NCBI GenBank assembly: GCA_949295035.1
Contig: CASFJO010000014.1
Coordinates: 1 to 42,061 of the forward strand
Direction of reading: 5' to 3'
Length of the DNA: 42,061 bases
DNA from: an uncultured Gemmiger sp.
GTDB taxonomy: Bacteria; Bacillota; Clostridia; Oscillospirales; Ruminococcaceae
A program made the position numbers and the translations under genes. The first letter of the stretch is position 1. Each line of letters starts with the position of its first letter. The notes under the pieces were generated by a model. The model did not search any database. It worked only from the letters and a program-made list of their open reading frames with translations, and was not told where the DNA came from. Of the stretch, positions 17,225-30,164 are shown one piece after another.

Positions 17225-17300
17225 TGTCAATCAGATATTCCCATCTATATACTTTCCCACCCCTCTATGCAAAAAGGCCCGCCGCAAGGCGGGCCTTTTT
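17225..17300 (+). ncRNA. Candidate small RNA of about 76 nt
   Basis: The predicted start (about 17225) lies only 46 bases before a perfect 13-bp terminator stem with tetraloop GCAA and five U residues (17271-17300). The implied transcript is a short pyrimidine-rich single-stranded 5' part followed by the terminator. No convincing ORF with a ribosome site lies inside. The hairpin could simply terminate hflX from the other side, so the RNA itself is a hypothesis. Confidence 0.4.
17271..17300. terminator. Bidirectional terminator beyond hflX
   Basis: AAAAAGGCCCGCC at 17271-17283 pairs perfectly with 17288-17300 around GCAA, giving a U-tract in both directions. It terminates leftward hflX transcription and any transcript from the orphan promoter at 17191. 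Confidence 0.9.
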
Positions 17301-17350
17301 GCGTCCTGTCCGGGATGCGGGTCTGGGGCCGGAAAGCACCTTGCCGCCCG

Positions 17351-18610
17351 CTAATTGAGCAGATACGCCTGATAACGGTGCAGCTCTTCGGTGGGGCACA
17401 TCCCTTCCAGATAGAGGCCGGTATCCCGATATTCCTCGGCGGTCACGCTGCCCCGGGCGCGCAGCCCCTCCGCCAGGCCCAGCTTATCGTAGGGCAGCAG
17501 CAGTTTTACCGGGCGCACCCGGTCGTGCAGCGCCTTGTCCAGCGCCGCCAGCAGTTCGTCCAGGCCCTGGCCGGTGCGGGCGCTGGTGAGCAGGATGTCC
17601 GGGTCGAAGGCCAGGGCGCCGGTCTTGTCGCACTTGTTGTATACGGTCAGCTGGGGGATGCTGCCGCAGCCCAGGCTTTCCAGCACCTCATCGGTTACCG
17701 CCAGCTGGCTTTCCCGTTCCGGGTCGGCCGCGTCGGCCACCTTTACGATCACATCCGAAAAGGCGGCTTCCTCCAGCGTGCTGCGGAAAGCCTCCACCAG
17801 TTTGTGGGGCAGCCGGCTCACAAAACCCACCGTGTCCACCAGTACGATGCCCAGCCCGCTGGGCAGGGTCAGCCTGCGGGCGGTGGGGTCCAGGGTGGCA
17901 AACAGCATATCCGCCGCGGCGGCCTGTTCGCCGCCGCACAAGGCGTTCATCAGGCTGCTCTTGCCCACATTGGTGTAGCCCACCAGGCTCACCACCGGCA
18001 CCCCGCTCTTCTGGCGGGTGCGCCGGTTCTCGCCCCGGCGTTTCTCCATCTCCCTGAGGCGTACCTCCAGCGCCTGGATGCGGCTGTGGATATGCCGGCG
18101 GTCGTATTCCAGCTTGCTCTCGCCGGCGCCGCGGCGGGCGCCTGTTCCGCCCCCGCCGCCGCCGCCCTGGCGGCTCAGCGCCTGGCCCAGCCCCTGCAGA
18201 CGGGGCAGCCGGTAGCGCAGCAGGGCCAGCTCGGTCTGCAGTTTGCCCTCGTTGGTCACCGCCCGGCTGCGAAAGATCTCCAGGATCAGCATGGTGCGGT
18301 CGATGACCTCCACCTCCAGCCGCTCGCTGAGATTGCGGATCTGGCTGCCGGTGAGCTCCCCGTCAAAGACGGCCTGTTCGGCCTGCAGGTTCTGGCAGTA
18401 GAGTTTCGCCTCGGCCAGTTTGCCCTCGCCCAGCACGGTGCCCGGCTCGGGCGCGTCCTTTTTCTGCACCAGGCAGGCCACCGCCTCCCGGCCTCCCGCC
18501 TCGCACAGCGCGCTCAACTCGTCCATGCTGCGCCCGGCGTCAAACAGGCCCTGATCCAGGCCCAGCAGCACCACCCGCATGGGGGGGCGCGTCTGCTGCA
18601 ATTCTTCCAT
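17351..18610 (-). CDS. hflX: GTPase HflX
   Basis: 419 aa from the ATG at 18610 (GAGGTG eight bases upstream). The N-terminal HflX domain (about 10-145) includes GTVLGEGKLAE. A run of seven Gly at 149-155 and the charged coiled-coil helix (to about 200) lead to the G domain: G1 GYTNVGKSS at 211-219, G3 DTVG at 259-262, G4 NKCD at 325-328, and a C-terminal tail. HflX binds the 50S/70S ribosome and rescues or splits stalled ribosomes under stress. The frame stays open upstream through the antisense of lacZ, but that is a GC-rich artefact; the start is fixed by the promoter and ribosome site. Confidence 0.93.
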   Translation of the reverse strand: MEELQQTRPPMRVVLLGLDQGLFDAGRSMDELSALCEAGGREAVACLVQKKDAPEPGTVLGEGKLAEAKLYCQNLQAEQAVFDGELTGSQIRNLSERLEVEVIDRTMLILEIFRSRAVTNEGKLQTELALLRYRLPRLQGLGQALSRQGGGGGGGTGARRGAGESKLEYDRRHIHSRIQALEVRLREMEKRRGENRRTRQKSGVPVVSLVGYTNVGKSSLMNALCGGEQAAAADMLFATLDPTARRLTLPSGLGIVLVDTVGFVSRLPHKLVEAFRSTLEEAAFSDVIVKVADAADPERESQLAVTDEVLESLGCGSIPQLTVYNKCDKTGALAFDPDILLTSARTGQGLDELLAALDKALHDRVRPVKLLLPYDKLGLAEGLRARGSVTAEEYRDTGLYLEGMCPTEELHRYQAYLLN

Positions 18611-18667
18611 GGCTCGCACCTCGCTTTCGCGTGTAGATCCGGGGCGCGGCGCGCCCCGGTACGCCCT

Positions 18668-18697
18668 ATTATAGCCGCCGGCCCGGCGGCTTGTCAA
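18668..18697 (-). promoter_or_regulatory. Promoter of hflX
   Basis: Minus-strand TTGACA (18697-18692) and TATAAT (18673-18668) with 18-base spacing, diverging from the lacZ promoter. Confidence 0.85.
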
Positions 18698-18706
18698 ACC
18701 AATGCC

Positions 18707-18735
18707 TTGTGGCGGCGGGGCGGCTCTGGTATAAT
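18707..18735 (+). promoter_or_regulatory. Promoter of lacZ
   Basis: TTGTGG at 18707-18712 and TATAAT at 18730-18735 with 17-base spacing and TGG before the -10. I see no clear operator or cre box here. Confidence 0.75.
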
Positions 18736-18790
18736 GAAACCAACAAATCCCAGGCGGGCGTTTTTCCGCCTTTTGACAGGAGGTATCCCT

Positions 18791-21616
18791 ATGCAGCCCG
18801 ATCTTCATTGGCTGGAGGACCCTGCCGTCTGGCAGGTCAATCGGCTGGAGGCTCATTCCGATCATGTGTGGTATCACCAGGGGCAGACCTTGCGCCAAAG
18901 CCTGGACGGCGCCTGGCGCTTTGCCTGGAGCCCCCGCCCCGCCGCCCGGCCCGCGGACTTCTGGCGGGAAGGCGCCGATCTGGACGGTTTTGGTGCCATT
19001 CAGGTGCCCGGGCATATCGAACTGCAGGGCCACGGCCAGGTGCAGTACACCAACACCCTCTATCCCTGGGACGGCGCCGCGCAGCTGCGCCCGCCCCATA
19101 TCGACTGGGACGACGATCCGGTGGGCAGCTATGTGCGGTTTTTCGATCTGGACGAGCCGCTGCGGGGCAAGCGGGTCTGCATCTCCTTTGAAGGGGTGGA
19201 GCAGGCGATGTTCGTGTGGCTGAACGGCCAGTTCGTTGGCTACGCCGAGGACAGCTTTACCCCGTCGGACTTTGATCTGACCCCCTGGATCCGGGACACC
19301 GGCAACCGGCTCTGTGTGGAGGTGTACAAGCGCAGCAGCGCCGCCTGGATCGAGGATCAGGACTTTTTCCGCTTTTCGGGCATCTTCCGCCCGGTCTATC
19401 TGTATGCGAAACCGGCGCTGCACACCGAGGATCTGTGGCTGCGCCCGGTGCTGGCGCAGGACGGCGCCGGCAGTTTGCGGGTACGGCTCAAGCTGAGCGC
19501 GGCATGGCAGGGCCCGGTGACCGACCCGGCGCAGGCCCGGGTGCATTGCCGGGTGGCAGGCCCGGACGGGCAGCCGCTGTTTGACGGGCCGCTGGCGCTG
19601 GCCGCCGCAGCGGGCGGCGCGCTGGAGGCCGGGCCGCTGGCGCTGGGGGCGGTGCGGCCCTGGCGGCACGAGGACCCCTGCCTGTATACGATGACCCTGA
19701 CCCTGGCCGATGCGGCCGGGCGGGAGCAGGAGGTGGTGCCGCAAAAGATCGGCTTCCGCCGGTTCGGCATCGAGGACGGCATCATGAAGCTGAACGGGGA
19801 GCGGCTGATCCTGAAAGGGGTCAACCGGCACGAGTGGAGCGCCGAAAAGGGCCGGGCCATCGACGAAGCGGATATGCGCCGGGATCTGCGGGCGGTGCTG
19901 GACGCGGGGGCCAACGCGGTGCGCACCTGCCATTATCCCAACCAGAGTTTGTGGTATGCCCTCTGCGACGAGGCGGGGGTCTATCTGATCGACGAGGCGA
20001 ATCTCGAGAGCCACGGCTCCTGGAACAAGCTGGGCAAGGTGGACCCGGAATGGAACGTGCCGGGCAGCCTGCCCGAATGGGAGGGCTGTGTGGTGGACCG
20101 GGCCCGGTCGATGTTTGAGCGGGACAAGAACCATCCCAGCGTCCTGTTCTGGTCCTGCGGCAATGAGAGCTACGCCGGCAGCTGCATCCGGGCCATGGCG
20201 GAGTTCTTCCGCAGCCACGACGACAGCCGGCTGGTGCACTACGAAGGTGTGTTTCAAAACCGGGCGTTTGACGACAGCAGCGACGTGGAGAGCCGCATGT
20301 ACGCCACGCCGGCGGATATCCGCGCCTACATGACCGGCCCGCATACCAAGCCGATGCTGCTGTGCGAGTACATGCACGATATGGGCAATTCGCTGGGCGG
20401 CATGGAGGAATACATCCGCCTGCAGGAGGAGTTCAGCCAGTACCAGGGCGGCTTTATCTGGGATTTCAAGGACCAGGCCCTCTGGCACACCGACCCGCTG
20501 GGCAGACGGGTGCTGGGGTACGGCGGCGATTTCGGGGACCGGACCACCGACTACAACTTCAGCGCCAACGGCATCCTGTTTGCCGACGGCCGGGAGAAGC
20601 CGGCGATGCAGGAGGTCCGTTACTGGTACGCGGACGAGGCGGCGCGCGCCGCCCGGGACGAGGCCAACGCCCGCGCCCGGCGGGAGGCGGAACAGACGCT
20701 GCACACCGAGCGCCGGCAGGCGGCCATGAAGGCCGGCGCCGCGCCGGGGCTGCGGATCGTACGGGGCGACGGAAATCTGGGGGTATACGGGCAGGATTTC
20801 GCGGTGCTGTTCTCCTATACGGAGGGCGGGCCGGTGAGCCTGCGATACAACGGAACGGAGTGGCTCTATCGGGCGCCGCGGCCGGCGGTCTGGCGGGCGC
20901 CCACCGAGAACGATATCGGCTGCGGCTTTCCCCGGCGCAGCGCGGTTTGGCGGGCGGCGGACCAGTACGCCCGCTGCACCGGCTGGGAGGTGCTGCACGC
21001 GGAGGCGGATTCCGCGTCGGTCCGGTACCGGTTCTCGCTTCCGGGAACGCCCCAGGCCTCGGCCGAGATCTGCTATACGGTGGACCGGTTGGGCGAGATA
21101 CAGGTGCGGGCGGCGTATCGGGGCGCCCCCGGCCTGCCGGAACTGCCCTGTTTTGGGGTGCGCTTTTCCACCCCGGCCCCGGTGGACCGGGTGGATTGGC
21201 AGGGCCTGAGCGGCGAGACCTATCCCGACCGGTGCAAGGGCGGGGCATTCGGCCTGCACAGCGAGGTCCCGGCCCGGGCCGGGTATCTGGTGCCGCAGGA
21301 GTACGGCTGCCATGTGGAAACGGTGCGGGCGGCGCTGCACCGGCAGGCGCCAACCCTGGCCGGCGCCGGCAAGCTGGAGCTGGCCATGGAACACGAGGCG
21401 TTTGCCTTCTCGGCGCTGCCCCATACCCCCGGCCAGCTGGAGGAGGCCTGGCATCAGGAGGAATTGCCGCCCTCTACCCGCACGGTGGTGTCGGTCTACG
21501 GGGCCATGCGCGGCGTGGGCGGCATCGACAGCTGGGGCGCCGACGTGCAGCCCCCCTGGCGGGTCAGCGCGGAGGAGGACCATGTGCTGACCTTCCGTAT
21601 GCGGCCCGGGCGGTGA
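18791..21616 (+). CDS. lacZ: Beta-galactosidase, glycoside hydrolase family 2
   Basis: 941 aa from the ATG at 18791, with AGGAGGT seven bases upstream. The GH2 order is complete: N-terminal sugar-binding jelly roll (about 45-220, with DDDPVGSYVRFF), an immunoglobulin-like domain (to about 330), the TIM barrel from about 335 (LKGVNRHEW, RTCHYPN), then the LacZ-type C-terminal domains including a small-chain-like beta-sandwich. The acid/base Glu459 lies in CGNES and the nucleophile Glu526 in LLCEYMH. No signal peptide is present, so it acts in the cytoplasm on imported lactose or galactosides. It is a single-gene unit with no transporter or regulator beside it. Confidence 0.93.
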   Translation: MQPDLHWLEDPAVWQVNRLEAHSDHVWYHQGQTLRQSLDGAWRFAWSPRPAARPADFWREGADLDGFGAIQVPGHIELQGHGQVQYTNTLYPWDGAAQLRPPHIDWDDDPVGSYVRFFDLDEPLRGKRVCISFEGVEQAMFVWLNGQFVGYAEDSFTPSDFDLTPWIRDTGNRLCVEVYKRSSAAWIEDQDFFRFSGIFRPVYLYAKPALHTEDLWLRPVLAQDGAGSLRVRLKLSAAWQGPVTDPAQARVHCRVAGPDGQPLFDGPLALAAAAGGALEAGPLALGAVRPWRHEDPCLYTMTLTLADAAGREQEVVPQKIGFRRFGIEDGIMKLNGERLILKGVNRHEWSAEKGRAIDEADMRRDLRAVLDAGANAVRTCHYPNQSLWYALCDEAGVYLIDEANLESHGSWNKLGKVDPEWNVPGSLPEWEGCVVDRARSMFERDKNHPSVLFWSCGNESYAGSCIRAMAEFFRSHDDSRLVHYEGVFQNRAFDDSSDVESRMYATPADIRAYMTGPHTKPMLLCEYMHDMGNSLGGMEEYIRLQEEFSQYQGGFIWDFKDQALWHTDPLGRRVLGYGGDFGDRTTDYNFSANGILFADGREKPAMQEVRYWYADEAARAARDEANARARREAEQTLHTERRQAAMKAGAAPGLRIVRGDGNLGVYGQDFAVLFSYTEGGPVSLRYNGTEWLYRAPRPAVWRAPTENDIGCGFPRRSAVWRAADQYARCTGWEVLHAEADSASVRYRFSLPGTPQASAEICYTVDRLGEIQVRAAYRGAPGLPELPCFGVRFSTPAPVDRVDWQGLSGETYPDRCKGGAFGLHSEVPARAGYLVPQEYGCHVETVRAALHRQAPTLAGAGKLELAMEHEAFAFSALPHTPGQLEEAWHQEELPPSTRTVVSVYGAMRGVGGIDSWGADVQPPWRVSAEEDHVLTFRMRPGR

Positions 21617-21653
21617 AATTGACCGGGCCTGAAATAAAAATACAGAAGACAGA

Positions 21654-21689
21654 AAGGCCGGTGCGTATCCATGGATGCGCACCGGCCTT
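21654..21689. terminator. Long hairpin between lacZ and trkH
   Basis: AAGGCCGGTGCGTATCC at 21654-21670 pairs with 21673-21689, one G-T pair apart from perfect. The plus-strand side lacks a U-tract; the minus side has TTCTGTCTTCTG followed by TTTTTATTT further on. It probably marks the end of both convergent units. Confidence 0.7.
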
Positions 21690-21794
21690 CGCCGTGTCGT
21701 GTCTCAAATCCTCAGGCCCGGAGCGTTCCGGTCCTGATCCTGGGGGCCCGGGGGATATGCTCTGTTCCCCGGATCCGTCTTTCGTGCCTGCCCC

Positions 21795-23261
21795 TCACGC
21801 GGCGGCGCGGCGGGCATGGCGGAGCGCGCCTTTCCAGGTGGGGGGATAGAAGAGCAGCAGCACCGGGAAGAGTTCCAGCCGTCCGGCCAGCATATCAAAG
21901 CAGAGCACCACCTTGGCGAAGGGGGTAAAATGCCCGAAATTCCCGGTGGGGCCCACCAGTTCCAGGCCGGGGCCGATGTTGTTGAAGGTGGCGGCCACCG
22001 CGGTGAAGTTGGTCACCATATCGGTGCCGTCCAGGCTCACCAGCAGCACCGACAGGGTGAAGATCAGCAGATAGCTCACCAGAAACACGTTGACCCCGCG
22101 CACCACCTCGTGGTTCAGGGGCTTGCCGTCCAGTTCCACCTTGCGCACGCTCTTGGGCACCACGTAGCTGTGCAGCTCCTTGAACAGGGTTTTGCACAGG
22201 ATGCCGATGCGGGACACCTTGATGCCGCCGCCGGTGCTGCCCGCGCAGGCCCCAATGAACATCAGCACCACCAGGATGGTGCGGGAGGTTTGGGGCCATT
22301 GGTTGAAGTCCACCGTGGTGAATCCGGTGGTGGTGATGATGGAGGCCACCTGAAACGCGGCGTCCCGCAGCGTTTTGCCGAAGGCCGCGCCGCCCGCGCA
22401 CAGCTGGGCCACGATCACCCCGACGGAGGCCAGCACGATCACAAAATACAGCCGCACCTCTTCCATGCCCAGCGCCTGTTTCCACCGGCGCAGAAGCAGC
22501 AGGTAATAAAAGGTGAAGTTTGTGCCGAACAGCAGAATGAAGATGGTGGTCACCCACTGGATGTAGGCCGAATAACTGGCCATGCTGTCATTTTTGATGC
22601 CGAACCCGCCGGTGCCCGCCGAGCCGAAGCTGGTGCAGAGCGCGTCGAACAGCGGCATGCCGCCCGCCAGCAGCAGCGCCACCTCCAGCACCGTCATCCC
22701 CAGATAGATCAGATAGAGGATGCGGGCGGTCTGGCGCACCTTGGGTTTGAGCTTGCCCACCGAGGGGCCGGGGCTCTCGGCCCGCATCAGGTTCATCCGG
22801 CTGCCGCCGGGCATCTGCAATACCATCAACAGGAACACCAGCACCCCCATGCCGCCCAGCCAGTGGGTAAAGCTGCGCCAGAACAGCATGCAGCGGCTCA
22901 GCGCCTCCACATCGCTCAAAATGCTGGCGCCGGTGGTGGTAAAGCCGGATACCGTCTCAAACACCGCGTCCAGAAAAAACGGGATCTCGCCGCTCAGCCA
23001 GAAGGGCAGGCAGCCCACCAGGCTCAGCACGATCCAGCTCAGCGCGGTGGCCACGCAGCCCTCCCGCACATAGATCATGGAATCTGCCGGCTTGCGCCAG
23101 ACCATCAGCCCGCCCGCCAGCAGCGCGCCCAGCGCCACCGGCACGAACCACCAGCCCGCCGCCTCGCCGTAGAGCAGCGCCACCAGGCAGGGCAGCGCCA
23201 TAAACGCGCCCTCGATGGCCAGGGTCCAGCCCAGTACATACCGGATCATCGGAAGATTCAT
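21795..23261 (-). CDS. trkH: TrkH-family potassium channel subunit
   Basis: 488 aa with AAGGGGG nine bases before the ATG. The four selectivity-filter repeats of the Trk/Ktr superfamily are visible in order: TTTGAS, AGTGGFG, TTTGFTT and NNIGPGL, each with its central Gly. About eight to ten membrane helices and P-loops surround them. The protein forms the K+ pore gated by the TrkA ring encoded 14 bases upstream. The filter glycines indicate a K+-selective pore. Confidence 0.93.
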   Translation of the reverse strand: MNLPMIRYVLGWTLAIEGAFMALPCLVALLYGEAAGWWFVPVALGALLAGGLMVWRKPADSMIYVREGCVATALSWIVLSLVGCLPFWLSGEIPFFLDAVFETVSGFTTTGASILSDVEALSRCMLFWRSFTHWLGGMGVLVFLLMVLQMPGGSRMNLMRAESPGPSVGKLKPKVRQTARILYLIYLGMTVLEVALLLAGGMPLFDALCTSFGSAGTGGFGIKNDSMASYSAYIQWVTTIFILLFGTNFTFYYLLLLRRWKQALGMEEVRLYFVIVLASVGVIVAQLCAGGAAFGKTLRDAAFQVASIITTTGFTTVDFNQWPQTSRTILVVLMFIGACAGSTGGGIKVSRIGILCKTLFKELHSYVVPKSVRKVELDGKPLNHEVVRGVNVFLVSYLLIFTLSVLLVSLDGTDMVTNFTAVAATFNNIGPGLELVGPTGNFGHFTPFAKVVLCFDMLAGRLELFPVLLLFYPPTWKGALRHARRAAA

Positions 23262-23275
23262 CGCCGCGCGCCCCC

Positions 23276-24670
23276 TTACGCCAGGATCTCGGCCAGTTCC
23301 CGCAGGCCGGTATGGGTGGTGACCACGATGATCCGGTCCCCGGCGTGGATGCAGTCGTCGCCGCCGGGGATCAGGATCTTGCCATCCCGGAACAGGCAGG
23401 CGATCAGCAGATGATCCCGCAGCGACAACTCCCGCAGCGGGATGTCCAGCAGGGGAGAACCCTCCCCGGCCAGGAACTCGATCGCCTCCACCCGGTTGTC
23501 AAACATGTGCAGCAGCGCCTCGATGTTGCTGTTCTTGGAGGCGCCCCGGCTGCGCACAAAGGCCAGGATCGCGTCGGTGGTCAGGTGCTTGGGGCAGATC
23601 ACGCTGCCCAGGTCCAGCCGGGATACCGCCTCCGGAAACATGATCCGGTTGATCTTGGTCACCGCCTTGGCGCCGGGCGCCACCGCCCGGGCGTGCAGGG
23701 TGAGCAGGATGTTCTCCTCGTCGATGCCGGTCAGCGGCACCACCGCCTCCGCCTGCAAAATGCCCGCTTCCCGCAGCAGGTCGGCGTCGGTGCCGTCCCC
23801 GTGCAGGATGGTGGCCTTGGGCAGCAGGTTGCTCAGTTCCTCGCAGCGGGCCATATCCGCCTCGATGATCCGCACCTGCACCCCCACCGCCAGCAGCCGC
23901 CGGGCCAGATAATAGGCCGCCTTGCTGCCGCCGATCAGCAGCGCGTTGTGTACCTGCCGGGTCTCAAAGCCCATCCGGGTCAAAAACTGCTTGGAGTCCC
24001 GCGAGGGGCAGATAAAGGTCAGCGCGTCGCCGCTGGCCAGCTGAAAGCCGCCGCCCGGAATGTACACCTGCCCGCTGCGCTCCACCGCGCAGACCAGTAC
24101 CGGGCCGGCCAGTTCCTTGCCCAGCTCCCGCAGATACCGCCCGTCCAGCTTGCTGTACGGGGGGATGCGCACCCGCACCATCTCGGCGTGCCCGCCCGCA
24201 AAGCTGGTCACGCTCAGGGCGGTGGGCAGGTAGAGCAGTCGGGCGATGGCCAGCGCGGCCTCCCGCTCCGGGTTGATCACCATGGACAGGCCCAGCTTTT
24301 CCTTCAGATAGTCCGCGTCCTCGCTGTAATCGGGGGTGCGCACCCGGGCAATGGTGGCGCAGCGCTTGGCCTTCTGGGCCACCGTGCAGCACAGAAGATT
24401 CAACTCGTCCGAGGCGGTCACCGAGATGAACACGTCGGCCTCGTTGATGCCGGCCTCCTGCTGGATGCGGTAACTGGCGCCGTTGCCCACCACGCCGCTT
24501 ACGTCGTACAGGTCGGTCACCGCGCTCACCGCGGCCGCCCGCCGGTCCACCACCGTGATGTTGTGCCCTTCCTGGCTGAGCTTCTCCACCAGGGAAACGC
24601 CCACCTTGCCGCATCCCACCAGAATGATGTTCAGCCCGTCCCGGGTCGCCCCGGCTATTTTGCGCGCCAT
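23276..24670 (-). CDS. trkA: Trk system regulatory subunit TrkA
   Basis: 464 aa from the ATG at 24670 (AAGGTG seven bases upstream). The protein has two tandem RCK units. The first Rossmann domain begins with VGCGKVGVSLVEKL and carries VVDRR, the acidic-residue position that contacts NAD ribose; a TrkA_C domain follows. The second Rossmann domain starts at LLIGGSKAAYYLAR with IIEAD, and ends in a second TrkA_C domain. TrkA assembles as a ring under TrkH and gates it in response to nucleotides. It is the first gene of the trkA-trkH operon. Confidence 0.93.
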   Translation of the reverse strand: MARKIAGATRDGLNIILVGCGKVGVSLVEKLSQEGHNITVVDRRAAAVSAVTDLYDVSGVVGNGASYRIQQEAGINEADVFISVTASDELNLLCCTVAQKAKRCATIARVRTPDYSEDADYLKEKLGLSMVINPEREAALAIARLLYLPTALSVTSFAGGHAEMVRVRIPPYSKLDGRYLRELGKELAGPVLVCAVERSGQVYIPGGGFQLASGDALTFICPSRDSKQFLTRMGFETRQVHNALLIGGSKAAYYLARRLLAVGVQVRIIEADMARCEELSNLLPKATILHGDGTDADLLREAGILQAEAVVPLTGIDEENILLTLHARAVAPGAKAVTKINRIMFPEAVSRLDLGSVICPKHLTTDAILAFVRSRGASKNSNIEALLHMFDNRVEAIEFLAGEGSPLLDIPLRELSLRDHLLIACLFRDGKILIPGGDDCIHAGDRIIVVTTHTGLRELAEILA

Positions 24671-24769
24671 TGCCGCACCTTCGCTTTCTTGTTGTAAAGT
24701 GTGGACGGGCCGCCTGGGCGGCAAGGGCGCCGAAGCCTGCGGCCCCGGCGCCATCCATCCACCCTATAC

Positions 24770-24796
24770 CTTATACCCAACCTGCCGCCTTGTCAA
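24770..24796 (-). promoter_or_regulatory. Promoter of trkA-trkH
   Basis: Minus-strand TTGACA (24796-24791) and TATAAG (24775-24770) with a short 15-base spacer, 100 bases before the start codon. The spacing is suboptimal, so the boundary is tentative. Confidence 0.5.
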
Positions 24797-24818
24797 TGCG
24801 CAGGTTGGCAGGATGCGA

Positions 24819-24851
24819 CAAAAATCCCCCCGCGGCACTGGGCCGCAGGGA
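24819..24851 (-). terminator. Terminator of the metNIQ operon
   Basis: GCGGC (24832-24836) pairs with GCCGC (24842-24846), extended by CCC/GGG around one mismatch. TTTTT follows on the minus strand (24819-24824). Confidence 0.75.
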
Positions 24852-24859
24852 GATACCGC

Positions 24860-25690
24860 TTACCGGGAGAATACGTCCAGGCTGTCGCTCTTGCCCGGGT
24901 ACACGCCCATGGGCTCGTAGTGGATGGTGCCCACGCTCACGATGTGGGTGCCGTTTTCCGCGTTGAAGTCGTCCAGATAGGGCTGGTGCTGGAAGTAGTT
25001 GGCGTCGATGCTGCCGTCCTCCAAACTGGTGTTGGGCATCACGTAGTCGTCAAACTCGGTGATGGTAAGCTCCACGTTGTACTGTGCCAGGATCGGCTTG
25101 ACATACTCCAGGCTCTCGGCGTGGGGGCTGGGGGAGGCGCCCACGTTCAGGCTCACCGGCTCGGCGATCTCGGGGATGGGCAGTTCCCGGGCGCCCATGG
25201 GCATCACCACGCCGTTGTAGCTGGCGGCGATCCAGTCCTGCACATCCTGGCTCATCAGTACCGCCAGCAGCGCCTGCACAGCCGGGTCATTCTCGTTGCC
25301 CTCCTTGACACAGAGCACGTTGCCGTAGGTCTGGGCGGCCACGCTCTCGGCGTCCTCGGTCACCAGTACCTGGCCGCCGATGCCCGCGCCGGAAGCGTAG
25401 TTGCCGTTGATCACCGCGAAATCCAGATCCGGCAGGCTGATGGGCAGGTTGGCGGCCTCCAGGGGCACGATCTCCACATTGTAGGGGTTCTCGGCGATGT
25501 CGTTCTCGGTGGCGGACAGGCCCGCGCCCTCGGTCAGGGTCAGGATGCCCAGATCCTGCAGCAACAGCAGCGCCCGGCCGCCGTTGGTGGCGTCGTTGGG
25601 GATGCCGATCTTGTAGGAGGCGCTGCCGCCGCAGGCGGCCAGGCTCAGCGCCAGTACCAGTACCAGCGCAAGACACAACAGTTTTTTCAT
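24860..25690 (-). CDS. metQ: Methionine-binding lipoprotein MetQ, circularly permuted
   Basis: 276 aa from the ATG at 25690 (AGGAG eight bases upstream). A lipoprotein signal ends at LAAC (Cys20). Residues 25-165 then match the half that is C-terminal in canonical MetQ/NlpA proteins: IPNDATNGGRALLLL at 30-44, ENPYNVEIVPLEAANLP at 67-83, AVINGNYAS at 92-100. A linker (166-178) leads to residues 179-276, which match the usual N-terminal half: NVGASPSPHAE at 182-192, FDDYVMPN at 213-220, DANYFQHQPYLDDF at 229-242, EPMGVY at 259-264. The protein stops at the point where the canonical chain crosses to the second lobe. All ligand-lobe motifs are present once, so this is a circular permutation, not a duplication. 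It should still bind methionine and deliver it to MetNI. Confidence 0.88.
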   Translation of the reverse strand: MKKLLCLALVLVLALSLAACGGSASYKIGIPNDATNGGRALLLLQDLGILTLTEGAGLSATENDIAENPYNVEIVPLEAANLPISLPDLDFAVINGNYASGAGIGGQVLVTEDAESVAAQTYGNVLCVKEGNENDPAVQALLAVLMSQDVQDWIAASYNGVVMPMGARELPIPEIAEPVSLNVGASPSPHAESLEYVKPILAQYNVELTITEFDDYVMPNTSLEDGSIDANYFQHQPYLDDFNAENGTHIVSVGTIHYEPMGVYPGKSDSLDVFSR

Positions 25691-25808
25691 GGGTAACACT
25701 CCTCTATCTCTCTTGGGTTGGGAGAGCGGCGCGGGGCCGGGCGGCCGTCCCGTACCGGCGCGGCTCTCTGTATTCGTCACCGCGGCCGGGCCGCGGGTCG
25801 GACAGGGT

Positions 25809-26477
25809 TCAGCGGCTGCGTTTGTCCGCGTGGCGGGCGATCCGGTTAAAGACGCCCTGGATCAGGCAGACCAGCAAAATCAGCAGCGCCACCGTCACAT
25901 ACATCAGGTCTTTCTGGTAGCGCTGGTAGCCGAAGCGGAAGGCGATGTTGCCCAGGCCCCCCGCGCCCACCGCGCCGGTGATGGCGGTGTAGCCCAGGAT
26001 GGTGATGGTGCTGATGGACAGACCCCTCAGCAGGCTGGGCACGCTCTCCACCAGCAGCACCCGGGTCACGATCTGCCAGTTGGTGGCGCCCATGCAGCGG
26101 GCGGCCTCCACCGTGCCGGGGTCGATCTCCTCCAGGCTCTGCTCCACCATGCGGGCCACAAAGGGGGCCGCGGCGATGGTCAGAGGCACGCAGGCGGCGG
26201 TGGCCCCGATGGAGGTGCCGGCAATGAACCGGGTGAGGGGAATGATAAAGATCATCAGGATCATGAAAGGCAGGCTGCGCAGGATGTTCACCAGCCAGCC
26301 GAACACCGCGTTGAAGCGGGGGGCCTCGGCGATGCCGCCGGCCCTGGTGACGGTGAGCAATACCCCCATGGGCAGCCCCAGCGCATAGGCGAACAGGGTG
26401 GGCGTCAGGGTCATGAACACCGTTTCGCCCACGCCGCCCAGCAGCAGCGATCCGTATTCTTCAAAAAACGCCTGCAT
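25809..26477 (-). CDS. metI: Methionine ABC transporter permease MetI
   Basis: 222 aa, normal length, with AAAGGAGG eight bases before the ATG. Five membrane helices are visible, and the cytoplasmic EAA loop that contacts MetN reads EAARCMGATNWQIVTRVLL near 135-153. NILRSLPFMILM and YTAITGAVGAGGLG are typical of MetI. Its start lies three bases after the metN stop and metQ follows 118 bases later, the usual N-I-Q order. Two copies would form the translocation pore of the importer. Confidence 0.93.
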   Translation of the reverse strand: MQAFFEEYGSLLLGGVGETVFMTLTPTLFAYALGLPMGVLLTVTRAGGIAEAPRFNAVFGWLVNILRSLPFMILMIFIIPLTRFIAGTSIGATAACVPLTIAAAPFVARMVEQSLEEIDPGTVEAARCMGATNWQIVTRVLLVESVPSLLRGLSISTITILGYTAITGAVGAGGLGNIAFRFGYQRYQKDLMYVTVALLILLVCLIQGVFNRIARHADKRSR

Positions 26478-26480
26478 GGT

Positions 26481-27221
26481 TCATGCCTCCTTTTTGCCCA
26501 GCAGCAGCCGGGCGATACTGCTTTGCGGATCGGCAAAGATGGCGGCGGTGTCGCCCTGCTCCACAAAATGGCTCTCGTCGATGACCACCATCCGGTTGCA
26601 GATGCGCCGCACCACGTTCAGTTCATGGGTGATGATCACGATGGTCACACCCAGTTTGCGGTTGATATCCTGCAGCAGTTCCAGCACGCTTTGGGTCGTG
26701 AGCGGGTCCAGCGCGCTGGTGGGCTCGTCGCAGAGCAGCACCCCCGGATCGCTGGCCAGCGCCCGGGCCAGCGCCACCCGCTGCTTCTGCCCGCCGGACA
26801 GCTGGCTGGGATAGCTGGCGGCCTTGTCCGCCAGGCCCACCAGCTCCAGCAGTTCGGCCACCCGGGCGGCCACTGCGGCCTTGTCGAATCTGTCCAGCTT
26901 CAGCGGAAAGGCCACATTCTCGGCCACCGTTTTCTGCATCAGCAGGTTGTAGCCCTGGAACACCACCCCCATGCGGCGGCGGGCAGCGCGCAGTTTCGCC
27001 CCCCGCAGCGCGGACAGGTCTCTGCCGTCCAGCAAAATGCGGCCGGCGGTGGGCTCCTCCAGCAGGCACAAACAGCGCAGCAGGGTGCTTTTGCCGGCGC
27101 CGCTCATGCCGATCACGCCGAAGATATCCCCGTCCCGGATGGTGGCGGACACATCCTCCAGCGCCACTACCCGGCCATTCTTGCCCTGAAATACCTTGCT
27201 GAGATGCTCGATCTCGATCAT
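26481..27221 (-). CDS. metN: Methionine ABC transporter ATPase MetN, lacking the C-terminal NIL domain
   Basis: 246 aa from the ATG at 27221 (GGAGGAG nine bases upstream). Walker A is GMSGAGKST (38-46), the Q-loop lies in GVVFQGYNLL, the signature is LSGGQKQR, and Walker B with the catalytic Glu is LLCDEPTSALD. The hydrolysing site is intact. Well-studied MetN proteins are about 340 aa and carry a C-terminal NIL/ACT-like domain that binds methionine and shuts the transporter. This one ends after the NBD (LLLGKKEA), so that inhibition is absent or done otherwise. Control then rests on the T-box leader. Without the T-box it could be read as any polar amino-acid ATPase. Confidence 0.92.
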   Translation of the reverse strand: MIEIEHLSKVFQGKNGRVVALEDVSATIRDGDIFGVIGMSGAGKSTLLRCLCLLEEPTAGRILLDGRDLSALRGAKLRAARRRMGVVFQGYNLLMQKTVAENVAFPLKLDRFDKAAVAARVAELLELVGLADKAASYPSQLSGGQKQRVALARALASDPGVLLCDEPTSALDPLTTQSVLELLQDINRKLGVTIVIITHELNVVRRICNRMVVIDESHFVEQGDTAAIFADPQSSIARLLLGKKEA

Positions 27222-27257
27222 GCTTTTTCGCTCCTCCCGCGCCGTGAAAACGGCAAT

Positions 27258-27558
27258 AAAAAATCCCCGTCCCTGCATACGAATACAAGGACGAGGATAC
27301 AAAAACCCCGTGGTACCACCCTGGTTCACCGCCCCCTCGCGGGGAAAAACGGCCTTGACAGCTGCGCCGGCAAAAGGCCGGTTACAGCCTGGCGCGATAA
27401 CGGGCGCACCCGTCGCAAGCTTGAGACTCCTGCCTTTCGCCCGCGCGGCTCCGGAACCATCTTCCGCTTCCTGTACCCTGCCCGTTTCCACCCGCGGGGC
27501 TCTCTGTAAAGGCCAATGCCGAAAGCGTACTCTTTCCTTCTCTGCCGATTTGGAATAT
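27258..27558 (-). ncRNA. T-box leader, methionine-specific, controlling metNIQ
   Basis: On the minus strand the leader shows AGAGTACG near its 5' end (stem I base), a long stem I with specifier loop GGAAGATGGTTCC (specifier AUG at 27460-27458), and the T-box antiterminator sequence AGGGTGGTACCACGGGG (27322-27306). Its TGGT bulge can pair with the ACCA end of an uncharged tRNA. A terminator (TCCTCGTCC with GGGACGGGGA at 27297-27264) runs into TTTTTT (27263-27258). Uncharged tRNA-Met should favour antitermination and switch on methionine import. Specifier choice is by eye but agrees with the downstream genes. Confidence 0.92.
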
Positions 27559-27564
27559 GCCATT

Positions 27565-27593
27565 ATGATAGCCGCGTCGCCGGCGCTTGTCAA
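27565..27593 (-). promoter_or_regulatory. Promoter of the metNIQ T-box leader
   Basis: Minus-strand TTGACA (27593-27588) and TATCAT (27570-27565) with 17-base spacing. Start predicted near 27558. Confidence 0.8.
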
Positions 27594-27635
27594 GCACTTT
27601 TTTTCTTGCGGGGGCAAAAACCGCGCCGTGCCGCC

Positions 27636-27701
27636 AAAAAAACGCCCCGCGCAAACACGGCTGCCGGGCTTGCCGGCACGGGCAGCGTTTGCGCGGGGGC
27701 G
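27636..27701 (-). terminator. Long terminator after the amidotransferase gene
   Basis: CGCCCCGCGCAAAC from 27643 pairs with GTTTGCGCGGGGGCG ending at 27701 (one bulged G), with an inner CTGCC/GGCAG helix. TTTTTTT follows on the minus strand. Confidence 0.88.
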
Positions 27702-27711
27702 AAAGCGGGAT

Positions 27712-28833
27712 TTACTTGTTTTCCTCCCAGATGGGATGCTTCAGTACCCAGCGGCCGAAGGCGTCCTTCTCGAACAGGTCCCGGTTGTAGAACTTGTCCA
27801 GAATGGCCCAGAACTCGGCCTCGGAGTAGCCGCAGAACTCGCAGAAATCCCGCACGCAGAGCGGGTCCAGCGCGCCGTCCCGCTCCTTGATGAGGGGGAT
27901 GGCCTCCTCCCGGGTCATCATGCCGTAGCGGATATAGCGGGCGGTGTAGTCGGTGGCGGCGGCGTGGCCGAACTTGGGGTACTTCAGCCAGCTGTGCACC
28001 AGGTAGGCCCGGCTGTCGATCTGGTCGAAGTTCTCGGCGTGGTGGGTGCGGTCCCACTCGTGGGTCAGGTCATGGAAGCCGCGGCTCTTGGCCAGCTGGT
28101 AGTTCTTGTAGCTGTTCCAGGGCAGGAAATAGCTCAGGTAGAACGGGTCCAGACGGGCCAGTTCCTCGGCGGTGGGGGCGTTGGTCAGGGCCAGGTCGTT
28201 CTCGCTCACACCGTAACTCAGCAATTCCTCGGTGGGGAAGCCCACCGCCACGCCGTTCTCGATCTGGCCGCGGGCGGAGTAGGTCTCCTCGTCGGCGTTG
28301 CCGCCGTACTCAAAACTCACATTCTCCCCGTAGCAGAGCAGCGGGGTGTTGAACTTGAGGGCCATGTGCAGCGGGAAGGTGTAGATCAGCCGGTCCACGT
28401 ACCAGGTGGGCTTGCCGTACTTTTCAAAGAAGGCCCGCATCAGGATCTTCTGGGCCTTGATGTTGGGCTTGCAGCTGATGATGGTGCAGCCGAACGCCTC
28501 CGAGATGTTCTTCAGGTTGTGCTTGCCCGCCTCGGTCATGGGGAAGTTGTCCTCCACGCTGAAGAGGATCGGGTTCATCTTCATGACCTCTTTCAGGATA
28601 TACACCTGGAAGTGGCTGTCCTTGCCGCCGCTCACCGCCACGGCGCAGTCGTAGCCGCCGGGGCCGTTGCAGCCCCGGTACTTGTCGCACAGAGCCTCAA
28701 ATTCCTTCCAGCGGGCGTCCCAGTCCACCTTGGCGCGGCTCTCGTAATGGCGGCAGGCGCTGCACACGCCCTCCTGGTCAAAGGTGATGCCGGGCCGGGT
28801 GTCCGGCATGGTGCACTTCTTGCAGTATTTCAT
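27712..28833 (-). CDS. N-acetyl sugar amidotransferase (WbpG/PseA type)
   Basis: 373 aa with AAGGAGG before the ATG. Zinc-type Cys pairs at 4/7 and 24/27 (YCKKCTMPDTRPG, VCSAC) precede an ATP-pyrophosphatase PP-loop, SGGKDS at 68-73. Family landmarks include CYGENVSFEYGG and a Cys-rich CVRDFCEFCGYS near the C-terminus. Characterised relatives convert a sugar carboxyl or acetamido group to an amidino form, using ammonia from HisH/HisF-like partners. No such partner genes are in this window. It lies behind the flippase of a surface-glycan cluster but has its own -10 box, so it may be transcribed separately. Confidence 0.87.
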   Translation of the reverse strand: MKYCKKCTMPDTRPGITFDQEGVCSACRHYESRAKVDWDARWKEFEALCDKYRGCNGPGGYDCAVAVSGGKDSHFQVYILKEVMKMNPILFSVEDNFPMTEAGKHNLKNISEAFGCTIISCKPNIKAQKILMRAFFEKYGKPTWYVDRLIYTFPLHMALKFNTPLLCYGENVSFEYGGNADEETYSARGQIENGVAVGFPTEELLSYGVSENDLALTNAPTAEELARLDPFYLSYFLPWNSYKNYQLAKSRGFHDLTHEWDRTHHAENFDQIDSRAYLVHSWLKYPKFGHAAATDYTARYIRYGMMTREEAIPLIKERDGALDPLCVRDFCEFCGYSEAEFWAILDKFYNRDLFEKDAFGRWVLKHPIWEENK

Positions 28834-28884
28834 TCCGCAGTATTCCCTCCTTGCAGCGGCGCGCGGGCCGCGTTGTCACCGTTT

Positions 28885-28893
28885 ATTATACCA
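28885..28893 (-). promoter_or_regulatory. Extended -10 promoter of the amidotransferase
   Basis: Minus-strand TGG-TATAAT (28893-28885) in the 104-base gap after the flippase, 52 bases before the start codon. No good -35 box is seen. Confidence 0.5.
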
Positions 28894-28937
28894 TGGGCGG
28901 CATGGTTCTACCAGTGGTTTGCGAAAAAGCGGGTCTG

Positions 28938-30164
28938 TCAGGCGAATTGCCGCCGCCCCGCCAGCCAGAGAAAGGCCCCCAGTGCAAGCGCCTGGGCGCC
29001 GAGACCCGCCATGGTGGCCAGGGCGGTGCCCCAAAGGCCGAAAGCCGGGATCAGCAGCAGGCTGGCGGCGAGGGCCGCCGCCAGCCCGATCAGGTTGCCG
29101 GCGATCAGCGCCCCCATGGCCCGGGCGATGGTGAGCAGGTTGCACAGCACGGTGGCCGCCACCGTGAGCACGGCGCAGAGCACCAGCGGCTGCAACAGGC
29201 CGGTGTATTCCAGGATTTCCGGGGTGCTGGGATAGAGCAGGCTCAGCCCCCAGCGGCCCAGCAGGGCAACCCCCGCCGCGCCCGCGGCCCACAGCGCCGC
29301 CAGCGCCAGCAGCCCCAGCCGCAGCGCTTTGCGCCAGCCGGCGGCGTCCCGGTCGTTCCACAGGCGGGCAAAGGTGGTGATGAAGGGCACGAACAGGTAC
29401 ACCGCCGCCACCTGCAGCAGCATCACCGGCAGAAAGACGTTGGCGAAATAGTTCAGCGCCACGCTGCCCAGGATGCGCTCGCAGAAATACCGGGGCGCCG
29501 ACCCGATGCTGGTATTGAGGCTGGCGTAGACCGCCAGCGGCAGGCAGCGCCAGAGCAGCGAGGCCACGCTGCCGCCCGCCCGGTTGGCAAAGTCCGCCCG
29601 GCGGCGGGCCAGCGGCACGTCCACCGCCAGCACATAGCCGGCGTTCAGCGCCAGCAGCACCGCCAGGGTCACGATCAGGTCGTTGGTGAGCAGCAGCCCG
29701 GCCACCACCGTGCCGGCGGTGAGCAGACCCCGGACCCCGAAGCTGATGCCCACGATGTCCATCCGCTCGGCCTTTTGCAGGTAGGCGTGCCACACGTCGG
29801 ACCAGCTCTCCACCAGCCGGTAGCCGGCATAGAGAAAGATGACCCACCGCTGGGCGGCGGAGTAGGCGTTCGCAAAGGCAAAGGCCATGCAGCCCGCCCA
29901 GGCAAGCGCCACCGTCAGATACCGGCTGAGCAGGTAGATACGATCGGCATACTGGCCGCGCAGATCGCTCACCTGGAAGGTGCGCATGCCGAAGCTGGCG
30001 GCGCTCAGCGCCACGTTGGCGATGGTCATGGCGGTGGCCAGCAGGCCGTTGGCCTCCACGCCGGCCAGGGCGGTCACCAGCAGGTTCATCACCGCCTGGC
30101 ACACATAGAACACAAGGCTGCCCGCCGTGTTGAAAACAAGATTTTTTCGAAGCTGGCTGTTCAT
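28938..30164 (-). CDS. Polysaccharide flippase (Wzx-like, MOP superfamily)
   Basis: 408 aa with GAGGTGA four bases before the ATG. The protein is almost wholly hydrophobic, with about twelve membrane helices, and starts with a short charged segment (MNSQLRKNLVFNTAGSLVFY) typical of Wzx/O-antigen transporters. It should flip lipid-linked glycan repeats across the membrane. The start lies four bases after the stop of the preceding surface-carbohydrate gene, so translation is coupled. A MATE drug exporter is less likely given the neighbours. Confidence 0.83.
   Translation of the reverse strand: MNSQLRKNLVFNTAGSLVFYVCQAVMNLLVTALAGVEANGLLATAMTIANVALSAASFGMRTFQVSDLRGQYADRIYLLSRYLTVALAWAGCMAFAFANAYSAAQRWVIFLYAGYRLVESWSDVWHAYLQKAERMDIVGISFGVRGLLTAGTVVAGLLLTNDLIVTLAVLLALNAGYVLAVDVPLARRRADFANRAGGSVASLLWRCLPLAVYASLNTSIGSAPRYFCERILGSVALNYFANVFLPVMLLQVAAVYLFVPFITTFARLWNDRDAAGWRKALRLGLLALAALWAAGAAGVALLGRWGLSLLYPSTPEILEYTGLLQPLVLCAVLTVAATVLCNLLTIARAMGALIAGNLIGLAAALAASLLLIPAFGLWGTALATMAGLGAQALALGAFLWLAGRRQFA

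Follow-up and report, generated by a model that had tools for sequence, protein, structure and literature searches.

A circularly permuted MetQ-type methionine-binding lipoprotein that probably arose more than once in Clostridia and Coriobacteriales

Organization of the metNIQ locus

The window analyzed here is a stretch of 42,061 nucleotides from an uncultured Gemmiger sp. Profile searches identified metN, metI, and metQ on its minus strand, which confirmed the intact metNIQ operon setting described in an earlier note that was based on the sequence alone. The metN gene (26481–27221) encodes an ATPase of 246 residues with the ABC domain only. A Pfam search did not find a NIL domain in this protein, and its best NCBIfam match was to positions 1–238 of 343 of TIGR02314 (MetN), below the curated cut-off. 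The metI gene (25809–26477) encodes a permease of 222 residues (NF008049, 227.7 bits; cut-off, 212). The last gene of the metN-metI-metQ operon is metQ (24860–25690), identified by open reading frame and profile searches and encoding a protein of 276 residues.

A probable T-box leader is located upstream of metN on the same strand (27284–27551). Its score with RF00230 was 78.1 bits (E = 5e-17 when 1 kb was searched), under the gathering score of 93, and no T-box reached the gathering threshold in positions 20000–30000 of the window. Two of 14 other loci had a T-box at this threshold: the Faecalibacterium-type permuted locus L076, upstream of metQ (97.9 bits), and the canonical locus L222, upstream of the operon (102.8 bits). 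The specifier position, read by eye, was AUG in the window and L076. Elsewhere in the window (17267–21682), open frames of 1449 and 1443 residues face each other on opposite strands.

Reversed order of the two halves of MetQ

The metQ coding sequence is a single open frame starting with ATG at 25690 and ending with a stop at 24860. According to its translation, residues 1–20 (25631–25690) comprise a signal peptide and a lipobox ending at Cys20, which was invariant in an 18-row alignment of permuted proteins. A profile search of the genome gave two matches to PF03180 (Lipoprotein_9), at 25196–25612 (residues 27–165; HMM positions 99–235, 119 bits) and at 24869–25150 (HMM positions 1–94, 107.6 bits). 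Read along the minus strand, the profile's second half comes before its first, and both halves were above the cut-off. They are separated by a linker of 13 residues between the old C- and N-termini (residues 166–178; 25157–25195). The whole protein matched PF03180 with an E-value of 2.9e-67 and 226.7 bits, with residues 27–165 as the best stretch, and the canonical order was absent as one collinear match. Chance is ruled out as the source of the half-profile matches by their scores.

A phmmer search against solved structures gave a two-stretch match in 22 of 22 sequences among the matches listed, and the reversed order was visible in both alignments shown (4ib2 and 4k3f). In an example pairing, residues 180–275 of the query corresponded to residues 12–107 of the chain, and residues 26–165 to residues 110–251. 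The reversed half order in one frame with a lipobox, as proposed in the earlier note, was therefore upheld by PF03180 and phmmer, and the search against MetQ/NlpA profiles suggested there as a check returned two out-of-order partial matches (HMM 99–235, then 1–94). That the halves come from unrelated families was ruled out, since both match PF03180 and MetQ structures.

The compared system is canonical MetQ/NlpA (PF03180 and TIGR00363), represented by Ruminococcus gnavus RUMGNA_00858 (PDB 4ib2) and the MetQ proteins of Neisseria meningitidis and Escherichia coli. The window protein shares both halves, the ligand residues, the lipobox, and the metNI operon with this system, but differs from it in the reversed halves, the new linker, and the short tether. 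It fell under the NCBIfam cut-offs of PRK11063 (146.5 against 374 bits), TIGR00363 (129.7 against 228.85), and NlpA (105.5 against 487); caution is needed in annotation where such MetQ models are used, as judged from this one scanned protein. The window protein is a MetQ by homology that breaks the canonical half order and very probably works like MetQ.

The source genome is a draft of 97 contigs with 91.8% completeness, a state that leaves room for an assembly or binning artefact at the metQ locus. However, the same order was found in all three sampled genomes of the same genus (G001, G002, and G003) and in other genera of the family, including the two-contig G022 and the one-contig G390. By tblastn, the permuted gene was also located in the replicon records for Vescimonas fastidiosa MM35 and Subdoligranulum variabile. 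The V. fastidiosa gene carries the annotation 'MetQ/NlpA family ABC transporter substrate-binding protein' and is followed by genes for an ATP-binding protein and a methionine permease. This recurrence across assemblies refutes an artefact in practice, and we assign it next to no probability.

Distribution of the permuted order

In a phylum-wide sample, 3 of 398 genomes, including the window, gave one collinear full-length match to a profile of permuted proteins. In the family sample, 171 of 396 genomes had a PF03180 match; the permuted order was confirmed in at least 22 of these, window included, and at least eight further genomes had two PF03180 matches of like score. An order-level scan of 394 genomes with a profile built from 18 permuted proteins gave any match in 125 genomes and one collinear full-length match of at least 394 bits in 31, with one additional weak match (G698). 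Around Slackia, at least 10 of 149 genomes, Slackia included, had a full-length match with at least 59% identity. A distant full-length match in G1237 (36% identity) may represent a further permuted form. A scan of named organisms yielded 80 loci, including those of Fournierella, Oscillibacter, Faecalibacterium prausnitzii, and Slackia faecicanis. The homologue collection suggested in the earlier note thus traced the permuted order across many Clostridia and Coriobacteriales. The gene is not the isolated case it had been taken for: its order of halves is common to many genomes, which fall into sets with at least two, probably three, separate origins.

The permuted genes were divided into three sets. 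Set A consists of the window, Fournierella, and related genera and has an MPMGA linker. Set B contains all other permuted genes, from Faecalibacterium and many Clostridia, with the linker motif DGY..DY..L.G. Set S consists of Slackia and L240–L248 from the order of Slackia (Coriobacteriales). Two set B genes (L169 and L183) were on contigs binned as Treponema, indicating that transfer or mis-binning occurs.

Only two architectures were observed in 219 sources (the window and L001–L218): of 190 distinct genes, 101 were permuted and 89 were canonical. An extra half was found in none of these 190 genes, and no rearrangement intermediate was detected within their open frames; tandem duplication followed by loss of the outer halves, the route assumed in the earlier note, was therefore not borne out. 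The Streptomyces loci L196 and L208, which were long at first look, were rejected as permuted because each has two canonical metQ genes in tandem or nearly so; the downstream copy of each neighboring pair has NLYQ instead of NYFQ. In L078 (3367–5031, minus strand), one lipoprotein carries an SBP_bac_3 domain ahead of a full canonical MetQ, and open frames of 572–581 residues surround MetQ in G181, G248, and G300 from the genus of L078.

Predicted fold and position of the break

The structure prediction suggested in the earlier note produced a confident AlphaFold model of the window protein (pLDDT 93.0, pTM 0.83). The model of an F. prausnitzii protein belonging to set B (87.2 and 0.77, respectively) had a confident core, with low values in the signal and tether. 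Each half of the window model opens with a strand-helix-strand series. Among the best 50 matches, Foldseek aligned approximately one half at a time to solved MetQ structures, as with 4ib2 (143 columns, TMq 0.44), which is the behavior expected of a sequential aligner. The fold itself is presumably that of canonical MetQ.

In canonical genes, four residues separate the two half-profiles in 110 of 113 cases. In 12 of 12 set A and 10 of 10 set S proteins, the permuted chain terminated 3–4 residues after the point where the first-half profile stops, and in 88 of 88 set B proteins it did so 3–7 residues after that point. The cut is in the same short loop in A, B, and S. The earlier note had placed the new termini at the crossover between the lobes; they appear to lie close by, but just past it, inside lobe 2. 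Assuming the type II binding-protein topology, we place the break after the crossover strand and ahead of the first strand of lobe 2. From this position, both hinge crossovers should survive and the hinge would be unchanged, with lobe 1 continuous, lobe 2 split, and the anchor on lobe 2. The idea that the permuted chain crosses between the lobes once only was dropped in light of the crossover positions in type II proteins.

Linkers and the lipid tether

The linkers differ between the sets. The Pro/Glu linker at residues 166–178 noted earlier was present in set A and is a feature of that set, but B and S had other linkers. The B linkers were approximately seven residues longer than the A linkers in the 18-row alignment. 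A like length of the linkers in the three sets was considered and dropped, since such figures depend on the half-profile ends.

The spacer between the lipid-bearing Cys and the core was 4–5 residues in 11 of 11 set A proteins (median, 4), with medians of 5 in set B (range, 2–30; 81 loci) and 4.5 in set S (range, 3–16; 10 loci). The canonical medians were 14 for eight sisters of A, 15 for ten proteins from the order of Slackia, 32.5 for 12 proteins picked as near B, and 18 for 82 others. Because both half-profiles begin at comparable strands, to within approximately two residues, the tether lengths can be compared with that precision. Mann-Whitney tests of permuted versus canonical spacers, which ignore kinship, gave p-values of 0.0002 for A, 0.003 for S, and 0.00002 for B. 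The comparison covered loci other than seven of the 88 set B loci without a lipobox, the cut set A locus L140, and canonical L078. According to the available text of PMC8416018, full stimulation of MetNI in N. meningitidis requires the MetQ lipid, and the position of the anchor may therefore matter. An advantage of the shorter tether is a guess.

The lipoprotein signal is present in the window protein (Cys20), and a recognizable lipobox was missing in 7 of 88 set B loci. In these (L183, L192, L193, L195, L198, L199, and L201), the lipobox Cys was unrecognizable and a signal peptide was present; the proteins are apparently secreted and not anchored.

Ligand residues and selection

In N. meningitidis MetQ, methionine is contacted by R156, N213, and N238 on one lobe and by Y81, F98, H100, and Y103 on the other (PMC6739813, available text). 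Motif matching by eye gave R39, N95 or N97, and N124 as the window equivalents of the former and Y216, F233, H235, and Y238 as those of the latter. All mapped contact residues were invariant in 50 of 50 permuted proteins. The dN/dS ratio was 0.11–0.45 in 28 pairs among eight set A genes, indicating purifying selection. A PF03180 search did not find a second NlpA-family gene in the window draft genome, and no further PF03180 gene above the cut-off was found in 40 of 40 selected permuted genomes. One genome from the Slackia sample, G1207, carries two permuted metQ genes.

The earlier expectation that function is kept agrees with the invariant ligand residues, the dN/dS values, and the status of metQ as the sole NlpA-family gene found in the genome, and retention of function is very probable. 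Most likely, the ligand of the permuted MetQ is methionine and its docking on MetI follows the usual mode. A shifted ligand, such as an analogue of methionine or a different sulfur-containing amino acid, would be in line with the MetN proteins of sets A and S, which lacked a NIL domain when scanned. However, the constancy of the ligand residues, the AUG specifier read by eye in the T-boxes of the window and L076, and the lack of another MetQ in the 40 selected genomes make a shift quite improbable.

Phylogeny of the permuted MetQ proteins

A MetQ tree was constructed from 107 sequences (9 from A, 22 from B, 10 from S, and 66 canonical). The 22 B rows and 7 of the 10 canonical Coriobacteriales were chosen for it, the long rows L232, L198, L226, L041, and L195 were left out, and nine canonical rows were thinned. 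Set A (support 100/99) grouped as sister to canonical proteins from two genera within its own family (100/96); the named locus L202 points to Ruthenibacterium as one of these genera. Set B was supported at 100/98 and had weakly supported canonical neighbors (91/55), and S was placed among canonical Coriobacteriales (99/92), in two places. In a further row set, L011 was dropped for a short half and one row was kept per cluster of approximately 80% identity (121 of 189). Another was made without canonical L012, L013, L014, L016, L078, L134, and L227, and included 27 sampled B rows and 60 of the 61 remaining canonical rows.

The AU tests, several in number, were performed on groups chosen with the trees already known. 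The p-values were 0.00076 for A, B, and S as one clade, 0.0026 for B with S, and 0.039 for A with S. For S as one clade, p was 0.354, with which a single origin of S remains compatible. A with B gave p = 0.136 in the broad MetQ set and p = 0.0435 in a focused set of 77 hand-picked rows with more relatives of A, in which A and its canonical sister were joined at 99/96. The MetQ tests thus reject a common origin of all three sets but are borderline for A with B. Trees of the single halves, which have few columns, needed 5 and 4 changes. In a count of consensus columns, A agreed with its sister in 12 and with B in 9, and A against S stood at 7:4. The counts were clear for S (9:0 against B and 13:0 against A) and largely so for B against A (6:1). 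The ratio of 12:9 is weak as support for separate origins of A and B, as is 7:4 for A and S.

Operon order and history of MetN and MetI

The order metN-metI-metQ was found in 10 of 12 distinct set A loci (the other two were metI-metQ and metQ alone) and in 9 of 10 distinct set S loci (the other was metI-metQ). In set B, 78 of 88 loci were metQ-metN-metI, three were metQ-metN, and seven had metQ alone. Canonical loci had N-I-Q or I-Q in 98 of 111 cases and Q-N-I in seven. A tree of MetI and MetN was built from 78 of 113 loci with usable MetI and MetN, including every third B locus. Set A was within a clade supported at 99 together with its own canonical sisters; with N-I-Q kept, A was most simply permuted in place. 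Set B was beside Flavonifractor-type canonical operons (98), which are N-I-Q, so the operon order of B changed too. Set S stood apart in this tree, which was built without canonical operons of Coriobacteriales. Permutation in place is evident only in the case of A. MetN, MetI, and the order of the operon genes set A and B apart. In AU tests on MetQ, MetN, and MetI together (without L232, L226, L041, L047, and rows lacking exactly one complete MetQ), A with B gave p = 2e-57 and A with S gave p = 1e-52, which reflects operon history and not that of MetQ alone.

Among the MetN proteins scanned, the NIL domain was absent in 2 of 2 from A (the window and L139), 1 of 1 from S (L158), and 2 of 2 from canonical sisters of A (L223 and L237). 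It was present in 3 of 3 from B (L142, L144, and L170) and in canonical Flavonifractor L200.

These data bear on the possibility that the permutation occurred once and that metQ alone was then transferred into other metNI operons, each time replacing the resident canonical gene. The p-value for A with B in the broad set, the nine consensus columns that A has in common with B against its canonical sister, and the Treponema-binned contigs in set B, by transfer or mis-binning, are in keeping with such an event. It is opposed by the tests of A, B, and S together and of B with S, by the focused set, by the different linkers, and by the location of metQ at opposite operon ends in A and S versus B, and we consider it unlikely.

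Origin and meaning of the permutation

At least two origins are shown for MetQ itself, and three are favored. We conclude with good confidence that the gene encodes a working, circularly permuted methionine-binding lipoprotein of MetNI and that the same change has at least two, probably three, origins (A, B, and S). In each case, a short linker would connect the former termini of MetQ, and the chain would instead be open in the loop that follows the SLDEL-type helix and leads into the initial strand of the second half. The binding site would keep its canonical three-dimensional form, so that methionine would be bound and handed to MetNI. The lipid anchor, carried in canonical MetQ on a longer tether that leads into the first strand of lobe 1, would precede that of lobe 2 by 4–5 residues. 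Set A would have been permuted in place inside a metN-metI-metQ operon, and B and S separately.

The MetI permease is a symmetric homodimer. A more tentative proposal, which we hold to be possible but doubtful, is that MetQ was permuted at least three times at a site pseudo-two-fold-equivalent to the old termini. The lobes would then swap roles and the anchor would move to lobe 2, a change tolerated or favored because either lobe could face the anchor side when MetQ docks on the symmetric MetI dimer.

Circular permutations in nature tend to be seen as single events. The fold of the permuted DNA methyltransferases has been permuted more than once; these are enzymes with a fold unrelated to that of MetQ. 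Among binding proteins, the closest precedent found is the Treponema pallidum glucose-binding protein TpMglB-2 (Tp0684), a natural circular permutant of 'Type Ic / Cluster Bc', for which a new topological class was proposed and a link with tethering suggested; its permutation is reported to occur in treponemes and Gram-positive bacteria (PMC4990184). Both TpMglB-2 and the window MetQ are naturally permuted, lipid-anchored ABC binding proteins, but TpMglB-2 has a type I fold, a sugar ligand, and a fourth crossover added by the permutation, and no claim of repeated origin was found in the available text of that paper. Pfam gave PF03180 only for the window protein at E-values up to 0.001, with no relation to MglB or type I proteins. 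In the open-licence literature searched, no report of a permuted MetQ was found, and it was not mentioned in the available parts of PMC12667903, PMC9732360, and PMC12357092.

It seems that the same protein was permuted repeatedly in the same loop, with the tether shortened in each set. Matched canonical and permuted pairs, such as the Ruthenibacterium-type and Fournierella-type proteins, would allow a direct test of what the placement of the lipid anchor and the identity of each lobe contribute to an ABC importer. The permuted proteins include a MetQ of F. prausnitzii. Five Faecalibacterium-type permuted MetQ proteins (L076, L077, L079, L170, and L180) start with RRDFLK or RRSFLK before the lipobox, which we take to resemble a Tat signal motif.
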